From assembly GCF_000184345.1 (NCBI RefSeq), contig NC_017583.1, positions 1,736,001 to 1,800,000 on the forward strand: a stretch of DNA of 64,000 nt, written 5' to 3'. A program made the position numbers and the translations under genes. This document shows, piece after piece, positions 1 to 15,502 of this stretch; the stretch's first letter is position 1; each line of letters begins with the position of its first letter. A model generated the notes under the pieces. That model saw only the letters and a program-made list of their open reading frames with translations, had not been told where the DNA came from and ran no database searches. The DNA is from Spirochaeta thermophila DSM 6578. Lineage in GTDB: Bacteria; Spirochaetota; Spirochaetia; Winmispirales; Winmispiraceae.

Positions 1-2610
1 ATCCTCGCCCTCCAGCCCCCACCGCCTCCCCACCCCTCCCCCCACCTCCCCTGCAGCCCGCTCCCACACACCCCCCTCACCCATCACCCGCGCCAGACGC
101 TCCCGCGCCCCCCTTGACAACCGCACCCCCTCCCCCACCCGCCGGTACGGGATCCCATGGTTCCTGAACGCCTCCTCCAGGACATCCATCACCAGGTGGG
201 TGCGGCACAGCACCCCTATCTCCTCCGGCGCCACCCCGCCCTCATCCTCCACCACCTCGCTGTCGAACGAGAAGAACGTCGTCCCCCCCAGCCGCTGCTC
301 GATCTGCCGTGCGATGAACTCCGCCTCGCTCTCCGGGCTCGCACACTCCCACGCACTCACCCTCCCGCCCCCACCCCTCGCCCGCATCCTCCGCCCCACC
401 CCCTCACCCAGCACCCCCTCCGCCACCTCCAGCACCTCCGCCGGACAGCGGAAACTCTCCTCGAGCCGCACCACCCGCGCCCCATACTCCTCCACGAACC
501 GATCCATCCACTCAGGGGAAGCCCCCCTGAACCCGTAGATCGCCTGCGCAGGATCCCCTATCATGCACACCACCCCCTCCCCCCCGGGCGCCATCCGCAC
601 GAGGAGCTCGTACTGCGCCGCATTGAGATCCTGCGCCTCATCCACCAGGACCCACCGGCACCGCCCCCTCACCCACTCCCGCACCCCCTCCACCTCGTCG
701 ATGAGCCGGGCCGCCCGAAGGAGAAGATCATCCACGTCGCAGGCCCCCCGCTCCGCAAGCACCCCCTCGTACACCCGCCACACCTCCCCCACCACTCCCT
801 CCACCTCCTCCGGACGCATCCCCTCCCGCTTGAGCCGCTCCAGCCTCCCCAACCCCACCCTTCCCGCACCCACCCGTCCGCACGCCTCCTCCCACACCTC
901 CCGCCGCTCCTCTTCATCCAGCACCACCGGCGGCACCTCGTACCCGGCCTCACGGTGGAACCGCACCAGGCACTCATAGGCCCAGGCGTGGAACGTCCCC
1001 GCCCACACCCCCTCGGCTCCACAGGTCCCCTGGAGCCTCGCCTTCAGCTCCTCTGCAGCCTTGCGCGTGAACGTGAGCACGGTGATACCCCCCTCCCCCT
1101 CTGCCACCAGCCTCGCCACCCGCTCCACCAGGACCCTCGTCTTCCCCGCCCCCGGCCCGGCCACCACACACAGCGCCCCATCCCCGACTCTCACCACCTC
1201 CCTCTGTACACCGGTGAGCCCTCCCTCGACCACAGCACCCCCCTCTTCCCTTCCCTTCACCCGCGAGAGCATCCCGGGATCGAAGGCGAGCAGGGGCCGT
1301 ACCGGCACCTCGGGCGCCTGATCCCTCCCGAAGAGCCCCCCTTCAGGCCTCCACCCCTCAGGAAACACCCGCACCACACCATACTGTCCATCGAACCCCT
1401 CCCTCACCCACACCCGCCGTGCCCTCATCCTCACCACCCCCTCGGCCACCCACCCATCCACCCGGATGATCTCCTCCACCGGCACTTCGAGCAGGACCTG
1501 AAGCTCACCCCCCAGCTTCCGGACAAGATCGAAGTAGCGCCCCTTCACCCCCTTCGACTGCACCCCCTTTCCCTCGACCTCGGCCACCACCTCATCGAGC
1601 GGCACGAGCGAGTAGAACGGCGGGAACCGCTCCGGCTCGATCAGATCCCGGTCTGCAAGCTGCACCACACGGTTCATCACCCCCACGGTGAGCGGCCGAC
1701 CACACACCGGGCACCTCCCCTCCCTCTCGAGCGTCTCCACCGGCGTGAGACACACCCCGCACTTCCGGTGTCCGTCCAGGTGATACTTCCCCTCCTCGGG
1801 GAAGAACTCCACCGTCCCCAGGAACCCCTTCCGGGTCTTGAGCGCCTCCCGCATTGCAGGAAACGAAAGCTCGGTGTCGAAGAGGTTCGCCTCCCTCCCC
1901 AGATTGCCCGCGGAGTGGGCATCCGAGTTGGAGACCAGGGTGAACCTGTCCAGGAACGAGCAGAGCCAGTTCATGGGAGGATCCGACGAGAGCCCGGTCT
2001 CCACCGCAAAGATCTCAGAAGAGAGGTCGCGGTAGCACTCCTCGATCGAATCGAAGCCCGACTTCGACCCCAACACCGAGAACCACGGAGTCCAGATGTG
2101 CGCAGGGATAAAGATCACCCCGGGATGGGCATCCAGCGCCATCTCCACCAGATCTCTGCTGTCGATTCCCAGGATTGGCCTCCCGTCCGAAGCAAGGTTC
2201 CCCCGTCGCTCCAGGGCACGAGAGAACCGCTCGGCCGCCTCGAACGAAGGGAAGAGGACCACGTGGTGCACCTTCCTCACCCGCTTCCCATCAGATGATT
2301 CGGCGCTGTAGATGGTGCTGATCTCACCCGAGAGCACAAACCTCGTGGGAGCCCGATCGAGGGCAAAGGCGATCTCTCCCGCCTGTGCTGGGGTGGGAAG
2401 CGCCTCCCGCCTGAGCACGAAGAGCCCCTCCTCCGCAGGCTCGAGCACCTCGGAGAGCTCCTTCCGCCAACCCGGATGGGTGCAGTCACCGGTCCCCACC
2501 ACTGTAATTCCCTTCACCCGCGCCCACAGGTCGAGAAGCTGCGGCGTGAGAAACTTGCTCGTCCCCCGCGAGAAACGGGAGTGGGTGTGCAGATCGGCGA
2601 TGAACCTCAT
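1..2610 (-). CDS. EndoQ-like PHP nuclease fused to UvrD-family helicase (3' end outside window)
   Basis: Read on the minus strand, one open frame of 870 codons runs from ATG at 2610 off the window edge with no stop. Residues 6-16 read DLHTHSRFSRG, the metal-binding start of a PHP domain. CGVC (about residue 283) and CPVC (about 299) form a zinc ribbon as in the PHP family TIGR00375, whose archaeal member EndoQ nicks DNA 5' of deaminated bases. After a linker, LTGVQ, Walker A AGPGAGKT (about 484), the TFTRKAAEEL motif and DEAQD (about 656) mark a superfamily 1A (UvrD/PcrA) helicase. The ATG shares ATGA with the stop of the dGTPase gene upstream, so the two are probably co-transcribed and coupled. 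Likely role: repair of hypoxanthine/uracil lesions with coupled unwinding. The domain calls are firm; the repair role is inferred. Confidence 0.85.
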   Translation of the reverse strand, partial: MRFIADLHTHSRFSRGTSKFLTPQLLDLWARVKGITVVGTGDCTHPGWRKELSEVLEPAEEGLFVLRREALPTPAQAGEIAFALDRAPTRFVLSGEISTIYSAESSDGKRVRKVHHVVLFPSFEAAERFSRALERRGNLASDGRPILGIDSRDLVEMALDAHPGVIFIPAHIWTPWFSVLGSKSGFDSIEECYRDLSSEIFAVETGLSSDPPMNWLCSFLDRFTLVSNSDAHSAGNLGREANLFDTELSFPAMREALKTRKGFLGTVEFFPEEGKYHLDGHRKCGVCLTPVETLEREGRCPVCGRPLTVGVMNRVVQLADRDLIEPERFPPFYSLVPLDEVVAEVEGKGVQSKGVKGRYFDLVRKLGGELQVLLEVPVEEIIRVDGWVAEGVVRMRARRVWVREGFDGQYGVVRVFPEGWRPEGGLFGRDQAPEVPVRPLLAFDPGMLSRVKGREEGGAVVEGGLTGVQREVVRVGDGALCVVAGPGAGKTRVLVERVARLVAEGEGGITVLTFTRKAAEELKARLQGTCGAEGVWAGTFHAWAYECLVRFHREAGYEVPPVVLDEEERREVWEEACGRVGAGRVGLGRLERLKREGMRPEEVEGVVGEVWRVYEGVLAERGACDVDDLLLRAARLIDEVEGVREWVRGRCRWVLVDEAQDLNAAQYELLVRMAPGGEGVVCMIGDPAQAIYGFRGASPEWMDRFVEEYGARVVRLEESFRCPAEVLEVAEGVLGEGVGRRMRARGGGGRVSAWECASPESEAEFIARQIEQRLGGTTFFSFDSEVVEDEGGVAPEEIGVLCRTHLVMDVLEEAFRNHGIPYRRVGEGVRLSRGARERLARVMGEGGVWERAAGEVGGGVGRRWGLEGED

Positions 2611-3788
2611 TCCTCCTCCTCTATCACATCCTCGAACAGGAGCGAGAACCTGCGCGGCATCATCACCTCCATGGCACTCCTCAGGGCGAACTCATCGGTC
2701 ATCCCCGCGATGTAGTCGAAGACCACCCAGTCCTCCTCACTCCGCTCCTGATACACCGTGCTCATCTTTCCCACAAAGTCACCGAACTGGCGCGCGAGCC
2801 TGTTGTGCTCCCTCGCGTAGCGCCCCACCTCCCAGCCGTACCGTTCGAAGAGCTCGCTCAGGTAGTCATGGAGGGTCTTGAGGATACGCTCGAAGTACTC
2901 GTGGAACGAGGTGAGCCGGGGACTCCGATAGATCGCACGGTAGTTGAAGTCGAGCAGGGCCATGAAGGCCTCGTACACCGGCTCCGAAAAACCGATGCCC
3001 CCGTGATCCAGGGAATACGAGATGAGATCTCTCACCAGGGTGTTGATGATCTCACTGTTGGTGCTCCCGAGTATCTGCACCGCCCTCTCGGGGATATCCT
3101 CCCTTCTCATGATCCTGAGCTGGAGGGCATCCTCCAGATCCCTCCCCACGTAGGCGATCCTGTCGGACATGCGTACCACACATCCCTCCCACGTCGAGGG
3201 ATACCCCTCCACACCCTCCAGATCTTCGAGCACGCGTTCCTCCCTATCGGGCACGATCTCTCGCTCGAACCGCTCCCCGCAGTGGAGGGCAATCCCCTCC
3301 CTCACCGCATAGGTGAGGTTGAGTCCCTGACCGTACCCGGCCAGCAGATCCACCACCCGCAGGCTGTAGAGCTCGTGGTGGAAGGTGCGCCCCCGCGGCA
3401 TGTAGGAGGCGAGGATCTCCTCACCCAGGTGTCCGAAGGGTGCATGGCCGAGGTCGTGGCCCACCCCTATGGCCCACGCGAGGTCGCTGTCGAGCCCCAA
3501 GGCCCTGCAGATGGTGGCGGCGATGGTCGCCACGTGCATCACGTGTTCGATCCTGGTACAGATGTGGTCGTTCTCGGGGATGAAGAAGACCTGGGTCTTG
3601 TGCTTGAGCCTTCGAAAGGGATACGAGTGGATGATCGCCGTGGCGTCCCTGAAGTAGGCCCCGCGAGGGTCGGTCCCCTCCTCCGGTCGGGGCCGCCTCC
3701 TCCGTCGATACACAGTGTCGTCGAGAGGATTGACGAAGAAGAGGTTGCCCATCGCCACTACTGTACGGCCAGGCCCGGCGAAAGGCAA
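2607..3788 (-). CDS. dgt: HD-domain deoxyguanosinetriphosphate triphosphohydrolase (dGTPase family)
   Basis: 393 residues. The N-terminal part has RDATAIIHSYPFRRLKHKTQ, then HVMHVA and GHDLGHAPFGH, the histidine and HD metal ligands of dGTPase-family hydrolases, which cleave dNTPs to nucleoside and triphosphate. Length is normal for the family. The frame opens with TTG at 3788, with GGAGG nine bases upstream; an in-frame ATG at 3752 (MGNLFFVNP) fits homologue starts but has a poor ribosome site. The stop overlaps the start of the EndoQ-helicase gene by four bases, which suggests a shared role in nucleotide-pool quality and DNA damage. Substrate preference cannot be told from sequence. Confidence 0.88.
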   Translation of the reverse strand: MPFAGPGRTVVAMGNLFFVNPLDDTVYRRRRRPRPEEGTDPRGAYFRDATAIIHSYPFRRLKHKTQVFFIPENDHICTRIEHVMHVATIAATICRALGLDSDLAWAIGVGHDLGHAPFGHLGEEILASYMPRGRTFHHELYSLRVVDLLAGYGQGLNLTYAVREGIALHCGERFEREIVPDREERVLEDLEGVEGYPSTWEGCVVRMSDRIAYVGRDLEDALQLRIMRREDIPERAVQILGSTNSEIINTLVRDLISYSLDHGGIGFSEPVYEAFMALLDFNYRAIYRSPRLTSFHEYFERILKTLHDYLSELFERYGWEVGRYAREHNRLARQFGDFVGKMSTVYQERSEEDWVVFDYIAGMTDEFALRSAMEVMMPRRFSLLFEDVIEEEE

Positions 3789-3969: not shown

Positions 3970-5559
3970 ATGTCTTCCACCACTTCCCTCCAGAGGACCA
4001 TATTCAGGACCGTAGTCCTCATCGTCATAGGATGGGTGACCATCTACGGATCCCTCACGGCCTCGATCCTCTTCTCCAGGGGGATGAGTCTCGCCCGTCA
4101 GCTGGTGGCCCAGCGCAACCTCGCCGCGGCCTACTACCTCAAGGCCTACTTCACCCCCTTGAGGAGCACCGCGGAGTTCCTGAGCTCCCAGGACATAGTG
4201 AGGAACCTCCCCCGCCTCGGCCTGAAGGAGAGAGAGGAGGTCCTCGGGCTCTACCGCGCCCTCGAGGCCGCGAACCCGGACCTCTACTACGTCTACTCGG
4301 GCTATGAGGACGGCAGCCTCGTCATCAACAACTACGTTCCTCCTCCGGGATTCGACCCGCGGGTGCGCCCCTGGTACACGGCCGCGCTCGGTTCGGCCCC
4401 CGACCTTTCTCCCGGCATCCCCTACCAGGAGATAAAGACCGGAGAATGGCTCGTCTCCATCAGCAAGGTACTGCTCGACGACGAAGGAAATCGGGTGGGA
4501 GTGGTATCCATCGACGCCTCCATGGAGCGGGCGGCTGAATTCCTGAGAGAGAGCATCACCCCCTACACCACGAGCTACAGCTACGTGGTGAACCCTCGCG
4601 GGATCATACTCATCCATCACCGGGAGGAACTCCTGGGCAAGAATCTCTCGGATATCATCCGGCCGCCGGCGGCCTTCACTAAAACATCATCTCCATTCGA
4701 ATACCGCTTCGAAGGGGTGGAAAAGTTCGCGCACTACACCGTGCTTCCCGACTTGGGATGGGTTGTTGTCACTGTACTCAACAAGTCAGAGGTGCTCCTC
4801 CCCCTTATTCATCAGATCACCATGGGCTTCCTCGTCGTGGCCCTTCTCGCCGCCACGTCCGGGTGGGCCGCCAGCAGGCTCCTCACCCGTCACGTCATCA
4901 CGCCCCTCGCAACCCTCCAGGCTGACCTCGAGCGGGTGATCTCCGGCGCCCCGGGAGTACCTCTCGCAGACTATCCGGACAACGAAGTGGGTCAGATCGC
5001 GAAGGGAGTCGAGCAGCTCACACGAACCGAACTCTACAGGAAGAATCAGGCGCTCAAGGCCCTCAACACACGCCTCGAGATCCTCTCCACCACCGATCCC
5101 CTCACCTCGATCTTCAACCGGAGAAAACTCCAGGAGGAACTCACGAGGGAATACCACCGGGCACTTCGGTACGGTTCCCCCTTTTCACTCATCCTCATCG
5201 ATTTGGATCATTTCAAGACCATCAACGACACCTTCGGCCACGGCAAAGGAGACGAAGTACTCATATGGACGGCGGAGATCCTCCGCACCCATCTGAGGAG
5301 CACCGACATCGTCGGGCGCTGGGGAGGCGAGGAGTTTCTCGTGCTCTGCCCGGAGACCCGTCTCTCAGAAGCGGCACTCATCGCCTCAAAGCTGGGTAAG
5401 GAGATCGCCCGTACCTCGCCCCTCCCCTCGTGTCGCGTGACCATCAGCGCCGGGGTGGTCTCCTTCTCTCCCGGGAAATCCCTCGAGGACCTGCTCAAAG
5501 AGGCCGACGAGAAACTCTACCGGGCAAAGGGAAGCGGGAGGAACACAGTCATCGTCTAG
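3970..5559 (+). CDS. Membrane diguanylate cyclase with CACHE-type sensor, HAMP and GGDEF domains
   Basis: 529 residues. A transmembrane helix near residues 12-36 is followed by an extracytoplasmic CACHE-like sensor (about 40-270, with FDPRVRPWYTAA and ISIDASM-type elements), a second helix (about 277-300), a HAMP segment and a GGDEF domain (about 370-529). The active-site loop is GGEEF, a functional variant. RSTD lies five residues before it, the position of the RxxD inhibitory site, so product inhibition by c-di-GMP is likely. The protein should make c-di-GMP from two GTP in response to a periplasmic ligand that is not known. It stands alone as a transcription unit. Confidence 0.9.
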   Translation: MSSTTSLQRTIFRTVVLIVIGWVTIYGSLTASILFSRGMSLARQLVAQRNLAAAYYLKAYFTPLRSTAEFLSSQDIVRNLPRLGLKEREEVLGLYRALEAANPDLYYVYSGYEDGSLVINNYVPPPGFDPRVRPWYTAALGSAPDLSPGIPYQEIKTGEWLVSISKVLLDDEGNRVGVVSIDASMERAAEFLRESITPYTTSYSYVVNPRGIILIHHREELLGKNLSDIIRPPAAFTKTSSPFEYRFEGVEKFAHYTVLPDLGWVVVTVLNKSEVLLPLIHQITMGFLVVALLAATSGWAASRLLTRHVITPLATLQADLERVISGAPGVPLADYPDNEVGQIAKGVEQLTRTELYRKNQALKALNTRLEILSTTDPLTSIFNRRKLQEELTREYHRALRYGSPFSLILIDLDHFKTINDTFGHGKGDEVLIWTAEILRTHLRSTDIVGRWGGEEFLVLCPETRLSEAALIASKLGKEIARTSPLPSCRVTISAGVVSFSPGKSLEDLLKEADEKLYRAKGSGRNTVIV

Positions 5560-7558: not shown

Positions 7559-8620
7559 ATGCCGTCGCACATCACGCACGCCCTCGTCGCATGGAAGGCC
7601 TGGTCTCTCGTTACAGGGGAACGTATCCCAGAGAAAAGCCCGCTTCCCCGTCATCTTAAAGCCCTCACCCTTGGGGCCCAGGGACCGGACATCTTCTTCC
7701 ACAACAGGAGGAGGAAACCTTCCGGCCTGTCCCTCGGCGCCCTTGCCCATAGGAGCGCCTACGGTCCTCTCACCTCCGCCATGCAGGAAACCCTCGCCGA
7801 GGACGACGCTCTCGGCCTCGCCTACCTCGCGGGATGGATCACCCACGCGATAACCGACCGCATCTTCCATCCCTACGTGATCTACCGGAGCGGCTGGTTC
7901 AGCCCCGCGCTGCCTCATACCACACGGTACATACGATGCCACACCCTCCTGGAGCGGCTCATCGATCTCCACCTGCTCGCCGAGGAGACCACTCTCGAGA
8001 TAGAGGAGCTCGAGTTCAGAGACTACGTGGATCTGGGGGAAGAAGCCCCCGCCTGGCTCATACGGATGCTGAAGACGGGCTTTCGCTCCACCTACCAGGA
8101 GGCGCGCAAGGACAAGAAACTCCTCCTCAGGATCAAGAACGCCTATGCGGATGCGCGGGACTTCTATGCCGCCATACATCCCATGACCCACGCCCTCGTC
8201 GTCCGGCGCATGGAGGAAAGGACCTCACGGGAGGCGAAGCTCAGAGGACTCGCCCTCCTCCACCCGCTCCTCCCCCCGTCCTTCGACATTGCCAACACCC
8301 GCCGGAGTCTCTGGTACGAACCCAGCCCACCCCCCACCCCCAGGCGGGAAGGCATCGCCGAACTTTTCCAGAAGGCCGTGGACCTCTCCACCGGCACCCT
8401 CGTCCCCCTCTACTCCCCCCGCGTATCAAAAGTCCCCCTCGAGGCCTTCCGGAGAGACGGCACCAACCTCTCCGACGGCAGGGGTGAGGGAAGGCCGCAC
8501 GTACGCTACAGCAATCCCCTGCCCCTTCCCTCCTACCTCGAGGATCTTCTCGTCCACTACGAAGAGAGGTTTCCCCTCACTGCCCCGGCGGCCGGTGCAG
8601 GGCCTTCACGTACTGGATGA
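7559..8620 (+). CDS. Zinc-dependent phospholipase C-like protein
   Basis: 353 residues. The N-terminus MPSHITHALVAWKAW, then GAQGPDIFFHN and HAITDRIFHPYVIYRSG, spaces histidines and aspartates as in the zinc-dependent phospholipase C / S1-P1 fold found in many Firmicutes and spirochaete proteins of unknown substrate. No signal peptide is seen. The ribosome site is weak, so translation may depend on read-through from the acyl-CoA synthetase gene. Its last 44 bases overlap the convergent EAL gene. Enzyme activity is a family-level guess. Confidence 0.65.
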   Translation: MPSHITHALVAWKAWSLVTGERIPEKSPLPRHLKALTLGAQGPDIFFHNRRRKPSGLSLGALAHRSAYGPLTSAMQETLAEDDALGLAYLAGWITHAITDRIFHPYVIYRSGWFSPALPHTTRYIRCHTLLERLIDLHLLAEETTLEIEELEFRDYVDLGEEAPAWLIRMLKTGFRSTYQEARKDKKLLLRIKNAYADARDFYAAIHPMTHALVVRRMEERTSREAKLRGLALLHPLLPPSFDIANTRRSLWYEPSPPPTPRREGIAELFQKAVDLSTGTLVPLYSPRVSKVPLEAFRRDGTNLSDGRGEGRPHVRYSNPLPLPSYLEDLLVHYEERFPLTAPAAGAGPSRTG

Positions 8621-10631
8621 ACTCCTCCTCCCTGAGCGGCTCCTTGTAGAAGAACCCCTGGAAGATCTGGCAGTTGAAGGTCCGCAAGAGGAGGGCCTGC
8701 TGCTCGTTCTCCACTCCCTCGGCGATCACCGCAAGGCCGAGCCCGTCGGCGAGCGTGAGGATGGCCTGTATGATGGCCACGTCCTCTCCCCTCGCAGGCA
8801 GCCCCTGGACGAACGACTTGTCGATCTTTATGGCCTTCACCGGATACTGCTTGATGTACTGGAACGTGGAATAGCCCGTCCCGAAATCATCCAGGGCGAT
8901 CCCTATCCCCATCTCCTCCAGCCGGGAGAAGAACTCCCTGCTCCCCATATGCTCGAGGAAGGTCCGTTCCGTGATCTCGAGTGTGAGATATCCGGGAGGT
9001 ATCCCGTGGCGAGAGAGCGTCTCTCTCAGGTGATCGACCAGTTGCACGTCCTTTATCTGCTGGGGGGAGAGATTCACCGAGATGAGGAGGGAGGAAAGGC
9101 CCTCCCTCCTCCACCTCCCCCATGCCTCTGCAGCCCTGCTTATCACCCAGCGTCCGAGTGGAAAGATGAGCCCGGTATCCTCTGCGATGGGAACGAACTC
9201 GGAGGGAAGGATCAACCCCTCTCTCGGATGACGCCACCGAAGGAGGGCTTCGGCCCCCACCACCACCCCCTCGATGCTCACCAGAGGCTGGTAGTAGAGT
9301 TCGAGCTCCTCTTCCCGAAGAGCCCGTTGAAGATCGCGCATGCGCCTCAGCCTCGTGGCGGCCCCCTGAAGCATGCTCTGGGAATAGAATCTGAACCCGC
9401 TTCTCTCCCTCCGTGCATGGTGGAGTGCAGCCTCGGCGTGCTGGAGGAGGACCTCGGCCGATCCCCCGTTCTCGGGATGGAGGGCGATACCCACCACGCC
9501 CGAGAGATACACCGGGGTGCCTCGGACGAAGAACGGCCGGGCGAAGGTGTCCAGTATCCGTTGCGCGAAGAGGGCCACGTCACCCGAAGAGGAGGCCCCC
9601 TCGAGCGTGAAGACAAAGGTCTGGTCCTCGATGTGGAAGAGGAGATCACCCCGCCGCTTCACCAGAAGGAACCTGTCAGCGATCTCCTTTATGACCAGGT
9701 CCCTCGCCTCGTGGCCGTAGAGATCCGTCACCTCGGAGAGATCCTCGGGGCTCGCCACGAGAAGGGCGAGCTTCTCCTCCGTCCCTCGCCCGATCCTCGC
9801 CCCCACTCTCTCATAGAACCGCGGAGCGGTCTCGAGCCCCGAGATCCGGTGCCGATGGGTGAGTTCATCCAGCTTCTCCTCCAGCTCGCGGGTCTGTGTG
9901 ACATCTTCCATGAAACCGATGAACACGGGATGACGCCGCCCGTTCTCCGCGATGTAGACGAGCCCGTACACCTTCACCGTGAGAAACCTGCCCGAGTCCC
10001 TCCTCACCCTGCACTCGAAGGAAAACCGCTGTCCCTCCGCCCAGTGTTTGCCCACGAACATCTCCTCCACCCGTTCCCTGTCCATGGGATGGATGTTCTC
10101 GAAGAACACCCTCGCAGGATAAGAGACGAAGGGAGAAAGCTCGGGGGCGAAGTGTTCGCAGAACCTCTTGCTGAAAACGAACTCCCCCCGCCACGGGGTA
10201 TAGCGGAAGAATCCTTCCTCCGCAGTATCGAGGGCGAAGAGAAACTCCTTGGACCGCTCCCGAACCTCCTTCCTGAGGGAGCGCACCACCTCCAGGAACA
10301 CCCCTGCCGCGAGGAGGAGGAGGTCTCCCATGTATCGGGCCGACACATCCTGGAGATAGAGGCCCCAACCCCCTGAAGCCACGAATTCAGTCGCTCCCAC
10401 CAACAGCAGGGCCGTGACCACGGGGACGCGCCGGACCCCCAGGAAGTACGCCGTGATGAGGGGAACAAGCCCCACGAGGATCGCATAGGCCCCTGTAACG
10501 GACGATCCCACCAGTATGAAGACCACATATCCCAGAAAGGAAATGCCGAGACACACGCCGAGTATCGAAAAGCGAGTCCAGGGTCCCGTCTTCACGAGAT
10601 GTACCATAGCATGAGAAATTTCGGCCCGCAA
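8577..10631 (-). CDS. Membrane EAL phosphodiesterase with PAS and degenerate GGDEF domains
   Basis: 684 residues. Three or four hydrophobic helices fill about residues 20-90, then a PAS domain (about 140-260), a GGDEF-like domain (about 275-425) and an EAL domain (about 430-680). The cyclase loop reads IEDQTF in place of GGDEF, so it should be inactive and perhaps GTP-binding. The EAL domain is intact: EALLRWRH, NLSPQQ, LEITE, DDFGTGYS, KIDKSFV and AEGVE are all present, so it should hydrolyse c-di-GMP to pGpG. It may oppose the cyclase at 3970. An IS1595 element lies 53 bases upstream of the start and probably altered its promoter. Confidence 0.88.
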   Translation of the reverse strand: MRAEISHAMVHLVKTGPWTRFSILGVCLGISFLGYVVFILVGSSVTGAYAILVGLVPLITAYFLGVRRVPVVTALLLVGATEFVASGGWGLYLQDVSARYMGDLLLLAAGVFLEVVRSLRKEVRERSKEFLFALDTAEEGFFRYTPWRGEFVFSKRFCEHFAPELSPFVSYPARVFFENIHPMDRERVEEMFVGKHWAEGQRFSFECRVRRDSGRFLTVKVYGLVYIAENGRRHPVFIGFMEDVTQTRELEEKLDELTHRHRISGLETAPRFYERVGARIGRGTEEKLALLVASPEDLSEVTDLYGHEARDLVIKEIADRFLLVKRRGDLLFHIEDQTFVFTLEGASSSGDVALFAQRILDTFARPFFVRGTPVYLSGVVGIALHPENGGSAEVLLQHAEAALHHARRERSGFRFYSQSMLQGAATRLRRMRDLQRALREEELELYYQPLVSIEGVVVGAEALLRWRHPREGLILPSEFVPIAEDTGLIFPLGRWVISRAAEAWGRWRREGLSSLLISVNLSPQQIKDVQLVDHLRETLSRHGIPPGYLTLEITERTFLEHMGSREFFSRLEEMGIGIALDDFGTGYSTFQYIKQYPVKAIKIDKSFVQGLPARGEDVAIIQAILTLADGLGLAVIAEGVENEQQALLLRTFNCQIFQGFFYKEPLREEEFIQYVKALHRPPGQ

Positions 10632-10683: not shown

Positions 10684-11608
10684 GGTGATTATCCATTATT
10701 TGCCACCCGGGAGTACTCTCTAAGTACCTCCAGCAGAAGCTCGAATAGATCCTCCTCCCTATGATTATACCGCCACTCCAATTCTTTCAAGTACAGCGGA
10801 AAACGTTCTACACTCACCCCGTGATGCTGGAGCAGCCGCCCTTTCGCATAACTCCAAAACCCCTCTATCCCATTGATGTACACTTTCCCATTCGCAAATC
10901 GCTTCCCGTGATCAATCCGCTTGTGCCTGAATCCATAGCTCACAAGCCCATCATAGCTCTTGAACCGGTCGGTATACACAAGCGACCCCCGCTTCACTTT
11001 GGCCACTGCCAGTCGTACAAGCTCCTCCGCACTTACCTGCTCCACCACTTCCACCTGCACTTTTCCCCCTCGCTCAAGAATCCCAAACACAGGAATCTTC
11101 CCTGCCGCCCCTCTCCCCCTCTTCCCCTTTCTCTTTCCTCCAAAATAACTTTCGTCCATCTCTACTTCACCTTCGAGCAGGCTCTTCCCCTCCTTCTGGG
11201 TGTGGACCCATATCGCCTTCCGAAACAATGTGTAGAGCCTCAGCGTCACCTCATAGGAGAGCCGTAACTGCAAAGCCGCCTTGTGGGCGGTAACTTCCAT
11301 CTCAAAGAGCTTCATTGCCCACAGGATCTTCTCCCAGGAGAGCTTCATCCCCTCGAAGATGCTCCCTCGTCGTATGCTCCACTCTTTCCTGCACTGGTAG
11401 CACTTGTACTTCTCTCGTCTCACCTCGCCTATATGCTCACTTCCACAGAAGGGACACCGGGTGTACGTGACGAGGAGACCTTTCTCTCTCAGATAGGAGA
11501 CCGTTTTCTCTCTATCGCTTGCAAGTGTTGAAAGACTTACGACGTCCATATCCGTGCCACCTCTCTCTTCGGTATTATACCACAGGTGGCTCAAAAATGG
11601 TAATCACC
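10684..11608 (-). mobile_element. IS1595-family insertion sequence
   Basis: The ends form an inverted repeat: GGTGATTATCCATTATTTG on the left, and on the complement of the right end GGTGATTACCATTTTTGAG. The flanking octamers TCTTGGAA and TTTAGGAA match at six of eight positions, a possible decayed 8-bp target duplication as expected for IS1595. It sits between the EAL gene promoter and the IS3 copy. Exact ends are uncertain by a few bases. Confidence 0.7.
10689..11549 (-). CDS. IS1595-family transposase
   Basis: 286 residues from ATG at 11549, which has GAGGTGG upstream; the frame is open to 11594. An N-terminal zinc ribbon (CPFCGSEHI, then CYQCRKEW) precedes a DDE-type catalytic core with VEMDESYFGGKRKGKRG and VYTDRFKSYDG, and ending IEGFWSYAKGRL, all typical of ISXO2/IS1595 transposases. 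The frame appears intact, so the element may still be active. Confidence 0.9.
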   Translation of the reverse strand: MDVVSLSTLASDREKTVSYLREKGLLVTYTRCPFCGSEHIGEVRREKYKCYQCRKEWSIRRGSIFEGMKLSWEKILWAMKLFEMEVTAHKAALQLRLSYEVTLRLYTLFRKAIWVHTQKEGKSLLEGEVEMDESYFGGKRKGKRGRGAAGKIPVFGILERGGKVQVEVVEQVSAEELVRLAVAKVKRGSLVYTDRFKSYDGLVSYGFRHKRIDHGKRFANGKVYINGIEGFWSYAKGRLLQHHGVSVERFPLYLKELEWRYNHREEDLFELLLEVLREYSRVANNG

Positions 11609-11693
11609 TTTAGGAAAATCCAGACAAAGGGGTGTACTGCGCCCATTAAGTCAAGACAAAAAGGGTAGGGAGAAATGGTAGTACCTAAAGGGG

Positions 11694-12560
11694 TCATGCG
11701 ACCTCCTCTCCTTGCATCTGCGCCCAAAGGGCCTCATATTCCTCGGGGCTCCTGTACCCTAGCGCACTGTGGACATAGTGCCGGTTGTACTCCTCCGCCC
11801 ATCCCCTCACCGCCTCTTCCAGCTCCCCCACGTGCTCCCACTCCCGCAGCCACAACAGCTCCTCCTTCATCGTCCGTATCATCCGCTCCGTGTCCGCATT
11901 CCCCTTCGGATTGTTGTAGCTCGTGAACACCTGTTCGATCCCCAATACCTCCATCGCCTTCATGAACGACCGGCTCAACGGTTGGCTCCCGTTGTCACTC
12001 ACCAGCCGAAGCCCTCTCCCCCTCACCCCCTCGGGAAACTCCCGCTCCACCGCCATCTCCATCGCCGCACACCACTCCTCACTCCTCCCCCTCACCGACA
12101 CCTTCCACCCCACCAGCTTCTTCGTGTACCAGTCAAGTACGATCACGAGATAGACCCATCCTATCCCTTTCACCAGCACCTTCGTCATGTCGATCCCCCA
12201 CCACTCCCTCGGTCTCCTCGCCACCGGCTTCCCTCGCCCACTCCCACGTCTCGCTTTCTTCTTCTCCCGTCTACACATAAGCCCCGCACCCTTCATAAGT
12301 CCTCTCACCCGCTTCTCGCTCACCTCCTCCCCCTCCCGCCTCCTCAACCACCACGCCACCCGCCTGTACCCCCAGTACGGATGCTCCCCCACAAGATCCC
12401 TGATCTTCTCCATAAGCCGCCCATCGTCCCTCTCCTTCTCCTCCCGCTTCTTCCCCACCTTCTGCCCCCTTTTCCTCCTCGCATAGTACCGGCTCCGACT
12501 CACGCCAAGTGCCTCACACGCATCCTTCACCCGGTACCCTTCCCCCACCAGCCGCTCCAC
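11694..12560 (-). CDS. IS3-family transposase OrfB (DDE integrase), copy 1
   Basis: 288 residues read from a GTG. Contains an HTH_21-like segment (GEHPYWGYRRVAWWLRRR) and an rve integrase core with WWGIDMTKV, LVSDNGSQP and YNNPKGNADTERMIRTMKEE. It overlaps OrfA. The OrfA frame holds AAAAAAA just before the overlap, and OrfB is in the +1 frame relative to OrfA, so a fusion would need +1 recoding or slippage that drops one A; independent initiation at the GTG is the other option. Confidence 0.9.
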   Translation of the reverse strand: MERLVGEGYRVKDACEALGVSRSRYYARRKRGQKVGKKREEKERDDGRLMEKIRDLVGEHPYWGYRRVAWWLRRREGEEVSEKRVRGLMKGAGLMCRREKKKARRGSGRGKPVARRPREWWGIDMTKVLVKGIGWVYLVIVLDWYTKKLVGWKVSVRGRSEEWCAAMEMAVEREFPEGVRGRGLRLVSDNGSQPLSRSFMKAMEVLGIEQVFTSYNNPKGNADTERMIRTMKEELLWLREWEHVGELEEAVRGWAEEYNRHYVHSALGYRSPEEYEALWAQMQGEEVA

Positions 12561-12849
12561 TGCCTCTATCTCCCCAACAGCTCCTTCGTTTTTTTAGTAT
12601 CTCGATCTGGATCGCCTGCTTCGCTATGATCTTCTCAAGCTGCTCTATCTTCGCTCGATAGGTGTCCTTCTCCTTCCTGCCGTCTGCAAGGGCTCTCGTG
12701 CCCCCTTCCAGAAACCTGTCCCGCCATCGGTAATACATCGTCTGGCTGATCTGGTGTTCCCGGCAGATCTCGGCTATCTGCCGTTCGCTTCGGAGTCCTT
12801 CCAGTACGATCGCAAGCTTCTCTTCAGTGGTCCATGTCCGCTTCTTCAT
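12514..12849 (-). CDS. IS3-family OrfA (helix-turn-helix, leucine-zipper protein), copy 1
   Basis: 111 residues: KRTWTTEEKLAIVLEGL and a helix-turn-helix (QIAEICREHQISQTMYYRWR), then a heptad stretch (KIEQLEKIIAKQAIQIEIL) for multimerisation. It differs from copy 2 by Ser for Gly near residue 20 and Ser for Gly near residue 98. Its 3' end overlaps OrfB. Confidence 0.88.
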   Translation of the reverse strand: MKKRTWTTEEKLAIVLEGLRSERQIAEICREHQISQTMYYRWRDRFLEGGTRALADGRKEKDTYRAKIEQLEKIIAKQAIQIEILKKRRSCWGDRGSGAAGGGRVPGEGCV

Positions 12850-12936
12850 CTGCGTCCTCCTCCCTTATTCCAGTCTTACCTCTACCATTTCTCCGTGTCC
12901 ACTCCTACGGGACGCAGTATAGGGGGGATGATCGAG

Positions 12937-14099
12937 ATGAGTCTAAAGGAATTAAAACGAGCGGAAGTGTTGGGGAAGATGGAAAGCCAAGGTCTGACGA
13001 ACGAGCAGGTAGCGCAGATCTTAGGGGTGAGCAAACGGCAGGTGCAGCGGTGGAAGAAGAGGCTCCGGGAAGGGGGATCGCGGGATTGCGGCATGGGAAC
13101 CGAGGCAAACCGTCGGGGAATCGGAAGGAGGAGGAGTTTCGGCAGAGGGTGGTGAGTAGGTATCGGGAGAGGTACGGGGATTTTGGGCCGACGTTTGCGA
13201 GCGAGCAGTTGGCGAAGGAAGGTCTTGAGGTGGATCACGAGACGCTACGCAGGTGGCTGCTGGAGGAAGGAATCTGGGCGAGGAAGAAGAGGAGGAAGCC
13301 GTACCGAAGCCGGAGGAAACGGCGGGCCTGTTTTGGGGAGCTGGTTCAGTTTGACGGGTCCCCGCATGATTGGTTTGAAGGACGGCGCAGTGCCTGTTGC
13401 TTGATGGTGATGGTGGATGATGCGACGGGGATCACGTATGCGCGGTTCAGTGAACAGGAGACGAGCGCTGCGGCGATGCAGCTGCTGTGGGGCTGGGTGG
13501 AGCAGTATGGGATCCCGATGAGTCTGTACTGTGACTTGAAAAACGGCTACAAGACGCTGCGGGAACCGACGCTGGAGGAACAGTTGGCGGGCAAAGAGCC
13601 GAAAACCGCATTCGAGCGGGCGTGCGACAAACTGGGGGTACAGATCGTGAGTGCGTATTCGCCGCAAGCGAAAGGGCGGGTGGAACGGCGGAACGGGATT
13701 CTGCAGGATCGGTTGGTGAAGGAACTGCGTCTTGCGGGGATTTGTACGATCGAGGAGGCGAACCGGTACTTGTGGGAGACGTTCCTGCCTCAGTTCAACG
13801 AACGCTTTGCGGTAGAAGCGGAAGACTCGCAGGACGTGCATGTGCGATGTACCAAAGAAACGAAGCTGAAAGAGATCTTTTGCTTTGAAGCGAATCGAGT
13901 GGTACAAAACGATTACACAATCTACTATGAGAGGCAGGTGCTGCAGATCAAGAACGACAAAGGCTTCCTTCCTCGGCCGAAACAGAAGGTCCTGGTTCGA
14001 AAATACCTGGATGAAACGATCTCCCTGTTCCATGAGAATAGGGAGTTGAAGTATGAGCGGGTAACTCCTGCACGGCGCACCAAACAGCGGGCAGGATGA
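12937..14099 (+). pseudogene. ISNCY (IS1202-group) transposase, frameshifted
   Basis: ATG at 12937 opens an N-terminal helix-turn-helix (MSLKELKRAEVLGKM, then EQVAQILGVSKRQVQRWKKR). At a run of five G (13072-13076) the reading must move by -1 to continue as GIAGLRHGNRGKPSGN, then an rve-like core (FGELVQFDGSPHDWFEGR, MVMVDDATG, YCDLKNGYKT, YSPQAKGRVERRNG) to 14099. Restoring one G would give the expected REGGIAGLRHGNRG. A loss-of-function deletion is the simplest reading; programmed -1 shifting is possible. IS3 copy 1 sits in its leader and IS256 copy 1 sits in its 3' end region. Confidence 0.85.
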
Positions 14100-14156
14100 A
14101 GAGAATACTACCCAGGGGGTGACATTTTAACTGAGTTAAAAAGGGTGACATTTTTA

Positions 14157-15502
14157 GGGACTGTAACATCGAGTGTTGAAAAAGGCGGGGAAAAAAGATA
14201 AGGGGTATCTCCCACCACACTAATCCTTTTTTCAAGGAGGAGATACTCCATGAAGCGTGGTAACACACGCACACTGATTGAGACACAGTATACCCTCTCT
14301 GATCTGATGAAACAAGTGGAAGACCAGCTACGGGAGGAGGTGCGCCACACCTACAAGACGTACCTGGAACACCTCCTTGAGACGCTGAGAGAGGAGGCAG
14401 TAGGACGACCACGATATGCACGAGGGGAGGCTGAGAAGGCACCGTACTACCGGTACGGCTACAGGAAATGGAAGACCGTGCAGACCCCCTGGGGGCCGAT
14501 CGAGGATGTACGCGTGCCCCGCATTCGCACCGGCGGGGGGGAAGGAGGTGAAGCTGGTCGCCTATGAGCAGAGGCTCGTGGCCCTCGCCGAGCAGCTCCT
14601 TCTCGGGTATGTGGGAGGGATGAGCGCGCGGACGTGGGCCATCCTGTTACGGGAGCTGGGGATAGGCGAGGCTCACCCGCAGACACTCCTGCGGCTCATA
14701 AAGCGTCTTCGTGAGGAGAAGGAGCAGTGGCGGAGGAGGTCCCTTAGAGGAGTGAAGGCCCTTGTGCTGGATGGGGTATGGGCCAAGAGGCGGGGGAGCG
14801 ATCAGAAGAAGCTGGTGGTCTTAAGTGCCGTGGGGGTGAAGGAGGACGGGACACACGAGCTGCTTGACTGGATCGTTGCAGCGCGTGAGGACCGAGCGAG
14901 CTACGAGCGACTCCTTACCGGGCTCTACGAGCGGGGGCTTGAGGAGGTGGAGCTGGTGGTGGCCGATGAGGCAGAAGGCATCTGGCAGGCGGTGGAGACC
15001 GTGTATCCCGAGGCGAAAAAGCAGATATGTCTGTGGCACCTGCAGCGGACGCTTGAACAGAAGCTCCTGCAGGATATGGGGGAACGGAAGGGGAAGAACG
15101 CAGACCTCCAGAAGGAGAGGCGAGCTTTTCGAGCGGAGTACTGGAAGCTCTTTGAGGCAGGAGGGAAGGAGGAGGCAGAGGGTGCGTGTGAGGCATTCGT
15201 GAAGAAGTGGGCGCCGAAGGCTCCCCGGATGACGGCCGCCCTCCTGTGGCGGAAGGAGCGGCTCTTCTCCTATCTGGAGTTACCCTATGCGTGGAAGAAG
15301 AAGGTGAGGACGAGCAACCTTGCGGAGAACCTGGTTCGGCACATGAGGAGCTTTCTGCGACGGTATCCCGGGTATATGAGTCTTGCCCATGCGGATGAGG
15401 TGGTAGGCCTCTACGTGGTGGGCATGCAGGTGATACAAGAGGTGGGGAGACGCACCCCTTATCAGCTCCAGCGTAATTTCAACACTCCCCCTTGACAGTG
15501 CC
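14157..15502 (+). mobile_element. IS256-family insertion sequence, copy 1 (about 1,346 bp)
   Basis: The ends are GGGACTGTAACATCGAGTG on the left and, on the complement of the right, GGCACTGTCAAGGGGGAGTG. They are flanked by the 8-bp direct repeat CATTTTTA (14149-14156 and 15503-15510). It has landed in the 3' flank of the ISNCY element, since joining the flanks rebuilds a continuous GGGTGACATTTTTATCG. Confidence 0.92.
14250..15495 (+). pseudogene. IS256-family (mutator-type) transposase, frameshifted copy 1
   Basis: The first frame (ATG 14250) covers about 100 residues and then reads into a stop after a run of seven G (14535-14541); the second frame continues from GGKEVKLVAYEQ to 15495. The intact copy at 60930-62189 has six G at the same place, so one inserted G broke this gene. 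Beyond the shift, the core (VLDGVWAKRRG, VVADEAEGIWQAVE, CLWHLQRTLEQKL, RTSNLAENL) is a Transposase_mut domain. Confidence 0.92.

Follow-up and report, generated by a model that had tools for sequence, protein, structure and literature searches.

Endonuclease Q (EndoQ) has been described as a mainly archaeal enzyme that is restricted to few genera among the bacteria (PMC4357722, PMC6202378), and a Desulfovibrio homolog was drawn in the 2015 EndoQ paper. Mutating E76, H84 or H139 abolishes the activity of PfuEndoQ (PMC4357722, PMC8307549), and its residues H139, G169 and S171 are reported to exclude normal bases sterically (reviewed in PMC8307549). EndoQ also incises uracil and hypoxanthine within single-stranded DNA (PMC11354406). 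In archaeal EndoQ, both binding to PCNA and stimulation by it depend on a PIP box at the C-terminus, and bacterial EndoQ homologs have already been noted to carry beta-clamp motifs (PMC4858679). For the events after the nick, the discovery paper had sketched two possible continuations, displacement of the strand or its removal by a helicase (PMC4357722). In UvrD-family helicases, contacts between the 2B subdomain and the duplex autoinhibit the monomers, and Rep monomers are activated by deletion of 2B (PMC13238157). Here we describe a gene of Spirochaeta thermophila DSM 6578 in which an EndoQ module and a UvrD-type helicase are encoded in a single frame.

An EndoQ module joined to a UvrD-type helicase

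The window, the whole 64,000-nucleotide stretch of DNA that we analysed, covers bases 1736001-1800000 of a closed chromosome of 2,560,222 bases. The fusion gene starts with an ATG at window position 2610, and the window start cuts its frame after 870 codons. The initial annotation had proposed extending the sequence past this edge. We fetched the DNA to the left of the window and found that the entire gene encodes 1008 residues (G000:C1:1735584-1738610), with the remaining 138 codons and the stop lying outside the window at genome 1735584-1736000. The features of the locus, in window coordinates, are as follows.

1..2610, minus strand: EndoQ-UvrD fusion gene, codons 1-870 of 1008 (open frame, genome DNA)
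1360..2610, minus strand: EndoQ module, residues 1-417, with PHP catalytic domain, zinc ribbon and C-terminal domain (homology, fold)
1702..1770, minus strand: zinc ribbon, residues 281-303 (conservation in relatives)
1219..1359, minus strand: linker, residues 418-464, with the remnant GGLFG (alignment of members)
1..1218, minus strand: UvrD/PcrA-type SF1A helicase, residues 465-870 in the window and onward to 992 outside it (homology, model)
1138..1161, minus strand: Walker A motif AGPGAGKT, residues 484-491, K490 invariant (sequence, relatives)
628..642, minus strand: motif II DEAQD, residues 657-661, D657, E658 and D661 invariant (sequence, relatives)
2607..3752, minus strand: neighbouring gene for a dGTPase-family HD dNTP triphosphohydrolase, 381 residues (profile search)
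2607..2610, minus strand: ATGA, in which the dGTPase stop overlaps the fusion start (DNA; same in the congener G006)

The initial annotation had read a single frame joining an EndoQ-like PHP and zinc-ribbon half to an SF1A helicase. Homology and 76 relatives confirm this reading, and the motifs that it quoted (CGVC/CPVC, AGPGAGKT and DEAQD) are all present. That 76 full-length relatives share the same single frame rules out a sequencing artefact as the source of the join. By sequence comparison, the homology of both halves is far above chance: residues 1-417 match PfuEndoQ (5zb8, 7k30-7k33) with an E value of 1.9e-58 in phmmer, and for residues 465-992 the E values are about 1e-55 against PcrA/UvrD and 2e-49 against the UvrD-helicase Pfam family. 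The EndoQ half also matches TIGR00375 (E = 9e-52), scoring 176.7 bits against a cut-off of 326.6 bits that governs the naming of full-length equivalogs and reflects no functional feature. Because this score falls under the naming cut-off, we class the predicted protein as a variant of EndoQ rather than a plain member. A Pfam search gave no PHP match for the fusion protein and recognised the helicase alone; with TIGR00375 also below its cut-off, automatic annotation is therefore expected to name a UvrD-type helicase.

We looked by alignment for loss of the PHP metal ligands and found the EndoQ set intact (D6, H8, H10, D42, E96, H115, H171, E204, D230 and H232), together with a base pocket of H171, G206 and S208. 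E96, H115 and H171 align with Pfu E76, H84 and H139, and G206 and S208 with Pfu G169 and S171, while E204 and the SDAH at 229-232 are the counterparts of Pfu E167 and its SDAH. Across 76 full-length fused relatives, drawn from the best 80 of at least 584, D42, E96, H115, H171, E204, G206, S208, D230 and H232 are invariant and D6, H8 and H10 near-invariant. The zinc ribbon that had been read from CGVC/CPVC (C284, C287, C300 and C303) is present, but its family ligands do not follow a CxxC..CxxC pattern: H281, C284, C300 and C303 are near-invariant, whereas C287 is kept in 35 of the 76 relatives.

Structure prediction with AlphaFold was applied to the 870-residue window part of the fusion and to a full-length ortholog from Mariniphaga sediminis (L078). 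The model of the window part, with a pLDDT of 82.9 overall and mostly above 80 in the EndoQ half, has EndoQ as its top PDB match (5zb8; TM 0.88, rmsd 2.8 Å) and aligns to the PfuEndoQ complex with dU-DNA (7k30) at TM 0.86. The ortholog model (pLDDT 87.8, pTM 0.78) reaches an EndoQ TM of 0.89. Taken together, PfuEndoQ homology, the kept ligands and the predicted fold uphold the EndoQ identity of the N-terminal half.

The helicase half has a complete SF1A motif set, comprising the Q motif, Walker A, DExxQD and motifs III-VI, and R695 and R959 are likewise invariant among the 76 full-length relatives. Against DNA-bound UvrD structures, the ortholog model gives TM values of 0.75-0.78, with 0.76-0.78 for D. 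radiodurans UvrD. The best PcrA/UvrD/Rep equivalog score is 244.6 bits, under the PcrA cut-off of 911, and the same genome carries separate, ordinary UvrD-type paralogs (L001 and L002). Measured as the stretch between motifs IV and V, the 2B subdomain of the fusion (residues 826-906) spans 80 residues, compared to 192 in paralog L001, and the median in the fused family is 94. The GIG duplex-contact motif is present in L001 and missing in the fusion; a GIG-like sequence occurs in 6 of 77 family members. Because 2B is small, and 2B autoinhibits Rep and UvrD monomers, the fusion motor is probably either less subject to autoinhibition or under the control of the EndoQ half. A 2A-insert signature, GGxSFFSxDSG, was considered as a family mark and dropped, as the pattern used for it matched just 23 of 77 members.

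Clamp motifs, distribution and neighboring genes

The pentapeptide QxxL[F/L] is a docking motif for the beta sliding clamp. The fusion protein ends in RQYTLF, and the family consensus of the last residues is approximately QLSLF. The pattern Q-x-x-[LM]-[FLYW] fits 69 of 77 family tails versus 3% of other 30-residue windows, and the aligned glutamine is found in 74 of 76 relatives, both exceptions ending at contig ends. We regard the QYTLF tail as a likely, if putative, docking tag for the beta clamp. In 23 of 77 members (L039, L040, L041 and L043 among them) the linker carries a second QxxLF-type motif just past the EndoQ core, compared to 8 of 1977 background windows. A hydrophobic-F remnant occupies this site in 73 of 77 members, here as GGLFG (P0001 residues 424-428). 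To judge from the alignment, the linker motif may be the fossil tail of an ancestral stand-alone EndoQ, retained within the fusion.

Searching with the whole protein against one genome per species confirmed at least 584 relatives among at least 590 matching stretches. Nearly all of the best 80 of these are encoded in one frame, of about 960-1210 residues. By record titles, the same 80 span about 20 bacterial phyla, including Bacteroidota, Planctomycetota, Myxococcota, Chloroflexota, Acidobacteriota, Actinomycetota, Pseudomonadota and Spirochaetota, in which helicase-fused EndoQ was apparently concealed by UvrD-type names. Many of the 80 are metagenome bins, and cultured strains are represented too (Mariniphaga sediminis, Saccharopolyspora hirsuta, Polyangium sp. 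15x6, Actinopolyspora mortivallis and others). The initial annotation had suggested that fused forms are little studied; accordingly, we found no description of an EndoQ/PHP-helicase fusion in the open-licence literature. Because the fusion occurs in many phyla and no study of the fused form was found, it may represent a bacterial repair route overlooked so far.

Within the Spirochaetota, 45 of 296 genomes contain an EndoQ module. Judged by open-frame length, about 31 of these are fused, about nine are divergent stand-alone forms, two belong to the fused clade and lack the helicase, and the rest are fragments. Three of the divergent stand-alone homologs (L127, L128 and L129, from G018, G010 and G265) show about 30% identity and have no QxxLF tail. 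In a quick tree, whose deep joins meet long branches, all fused forms group together, and both PfuEndoQ and the divergent stand-alone forms of spirochaetes fall outside this group. A single origin of the fusion is therefore likely but, because the deep branches are long, not proven. The same tree places two helicase losses inside the fused clade, L119 (G138, 8412-9761) and L130 (G016, 7918-9186). Both consist of the EndoQ half alone, also without the C-terminal QxxLF, and a search beside them for a helicase remnant found none.

The four-base overlap with an HD dNTP hydrolase gene, seen in the initial annotation, is real: the ATGA is visible in the DNA and suggests that translation of the dGTPase and fusion genes is likely to be coupled. 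The annotation had gone further and proposed one pathway from nucleotide pool to lesion removal. A coupled system of this kind would fit the overlap, found here and in the congener, as well as the sister genus G138, where dgt also lies upstream of a helicase-less EndoQ. However, the G138 genes are about 160 bp apart and do not overlap, no dgt homolog appeared in the flanking DNA examined at other fused loci (76 of 91 loci with more than 1.5 kb upstream), and an operon layout is by itself no proof of a shared pathway. With dgt adjacency limited, in the DNA examined, to this genus and one sister genus, we reject dGTPase coupling as a general rule and consider a joint pool-to-lesion system very unlikely; the proposed pathway is not supported, and the dGTPase link is a local operon feature. 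Two cyclic-di-GMP genes also lie near the fusion locus, a sensor with a C-terminus of GGDEF type by sequence (window 3970-5559, plus strand) and a PAS-GGDEF-EAL protein identified by Pfam (8577-10631, minus strand). Window 10689-15495 holds a cluster of four transposase-like genes that belong to different types (IS1595/ISXO2, rve-type, a weak Tc3-like match and Mutator).

Across 91 loci, no neighbor family is conserved at a fixed place. The largest recurring group appears at 8 of the 91, in scattered positions, and does not constitute a partner. The fusion had no match on plasmids at E 1e-20, where a control query with an ordinary UvrD retrieved 2931 records, and the EndoQ half had none in phage and IMG/VR viral records; on these negatives we reject mobile or viral spread. 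The same data bear on a possible role in defence against phages or plasmids, in which the nuclease-helicase would attack DNA containing uracil or other modified bases. For Bacillus EndoQ a defensive role has been proposed (PMC8307549), and Gabija GajB profiles give scores on the helicase half. Those matches, however, are restricted to the helicase and reflect general UvrD kinship, no conserved or defence-like neighbor emerged at the 91 loci, and neither the fusion on plasmids nor its EndoQ half in viral records gave a match, leaving a defensive function very improbable.

Proposed mechanism and relation to known systems

Other base-repair genes constrain what the fusion might be for. Of the 296 genomes in the phylum, 289 encode a UDG-superfamily protein, this one included. 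Because UDG is so widespread, uracil removal alone fails to explain retention of the gene, and we reject the idea that the fusion replaces UDG. EndoV had no match in this genome. Across the phylum, EndoV and EndoQ occur together in 3 genomes, with no significant signal of avoidance (odds ratio 0.51, p = 0.44).

From the motifs and models, we think it reasonably probable that the protein, tethered to the clamp, nicks DNA 5' of uracil, inosine or AP sites and then unwinds from the nick. We infer all of the enzymatic steps, the clamp binding and the direction of the motor at the nick. First, the protein would dock on the beta sliding clamp through its C-terminal QYTLF, much as archaeal EndoQ uses its PIP box to dock on PCNA. 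The EndoQ module would then flip the lesion, either an abasic site or a deaminated base (uracil, hypoxanthine and perhaps xanthine), into a pocket formed together with the zinc ribbon and cut the phosphodiester 5' of it, leaving a 3'-OH. Next, the UvrD motor, acting in cis, would load at the nick and track 3' to 5' along the intact complementary strand, peeling off the strand with the lesion, 5' end first, as a flap; with 2B reduced, the usual autoinhibition of the monomer would be weak or set by the EndoQ module. Finally, a clamp-bound polymerase would fill in from the 3'-OH, and a 5' flap nuclease or exonuclease would take off the flap. The fusion would thereby provide the post-nick unwinding step in cis.

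Besides the presence of UDG, two points run counter to this scheme. A 3'-to-5' motor at a nick could instead track the 3'-OH strand, moving away from the lesion. In addition, L119 and L130 keep EndoQ without a helicase; the motor is therefore not needed in every case. Incision and unwinding might also not be sequential at all: the motor might act as a translocase, either removing proteins or RNA polymerase from the DNA or opening the duplex ahead for inspection by EndoQ at the replication fork. UvrD-family monomers are indeed ssDNA translocases and protein displacers (PMC13238157), EndoQ cleaves uracil and hypoxanthine in single-stranded DNA too (PMC11354406), and the clamp motif would bring the protein to forks of replication or repair. 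The reduction of 2B, which restrains unwinding by Rep, nevertheless suits an unwinding enzyme at least as well, and we find a translocase role rather unlikely.

The broader reading of nick-and-unwind repair is that the family constitutes an overlooked, widespread bacterial form of excision repair, in which one clamp-bound polypeptide locates a deaminated base, nicks on its 5' side with no glycosylase involved and unwinds the damaged strand from its own nick, and that EndoQ-type repair is as bacterial as it is archaeal. We put this forward tentatively, as quite possible. If active, the fusion would give many bacteria a glycosylase-free repair route and would be a compact model for joining incision, unwinding and the sliding clamp, and events after the EndoQ nick would become addressable on one protein. 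It might also find practical use as a source of lesion-specific nick-and-displace enzymes, including thermostable ones.

Among known systems, the nearest is Endonuclease Q itself (PfuEndoQ PF1551, TkoEndoQ, MacEndoQ and Bacillus pumilus EndoQ; TIGR00375/COG1379), with which the fusion has in common the whole predicted fold, the metal ligands, the base-selection residues, the zinc ribbon and a C-terminal motif of sliding-clamp type. It differs in being about 30% identical, in its attached helicase and in a clamp motif that is of beta-clamp type and placed after the helicase; where archaeal EndoQ has a PCNA box at its C-terminus, almost all members of the fusion family have QLxLF at the equivalent end position. 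With UvrD, PcrA and Rep it shares all motor motifs and the fold of DNA-bound UvrD, but its 2B is less than half the size and without GIG, a nuclease stands N-terminal to the motor, and the chain ends in QxxLF. Gabija GajB has a UvrD-like motor as well, although it is a separate protein with GajA as its partner and without an EndoQ module. AddA, RecB and AdnB, like the fusion, combine a UvrD-type motor and a nuclease in one chain. Their nuclease is a C-terminal, RecB/Cas4-type domain for double-strand ends, whereas that of the fusion is an N-terminal PHP domain predicted to be lesion-specific.
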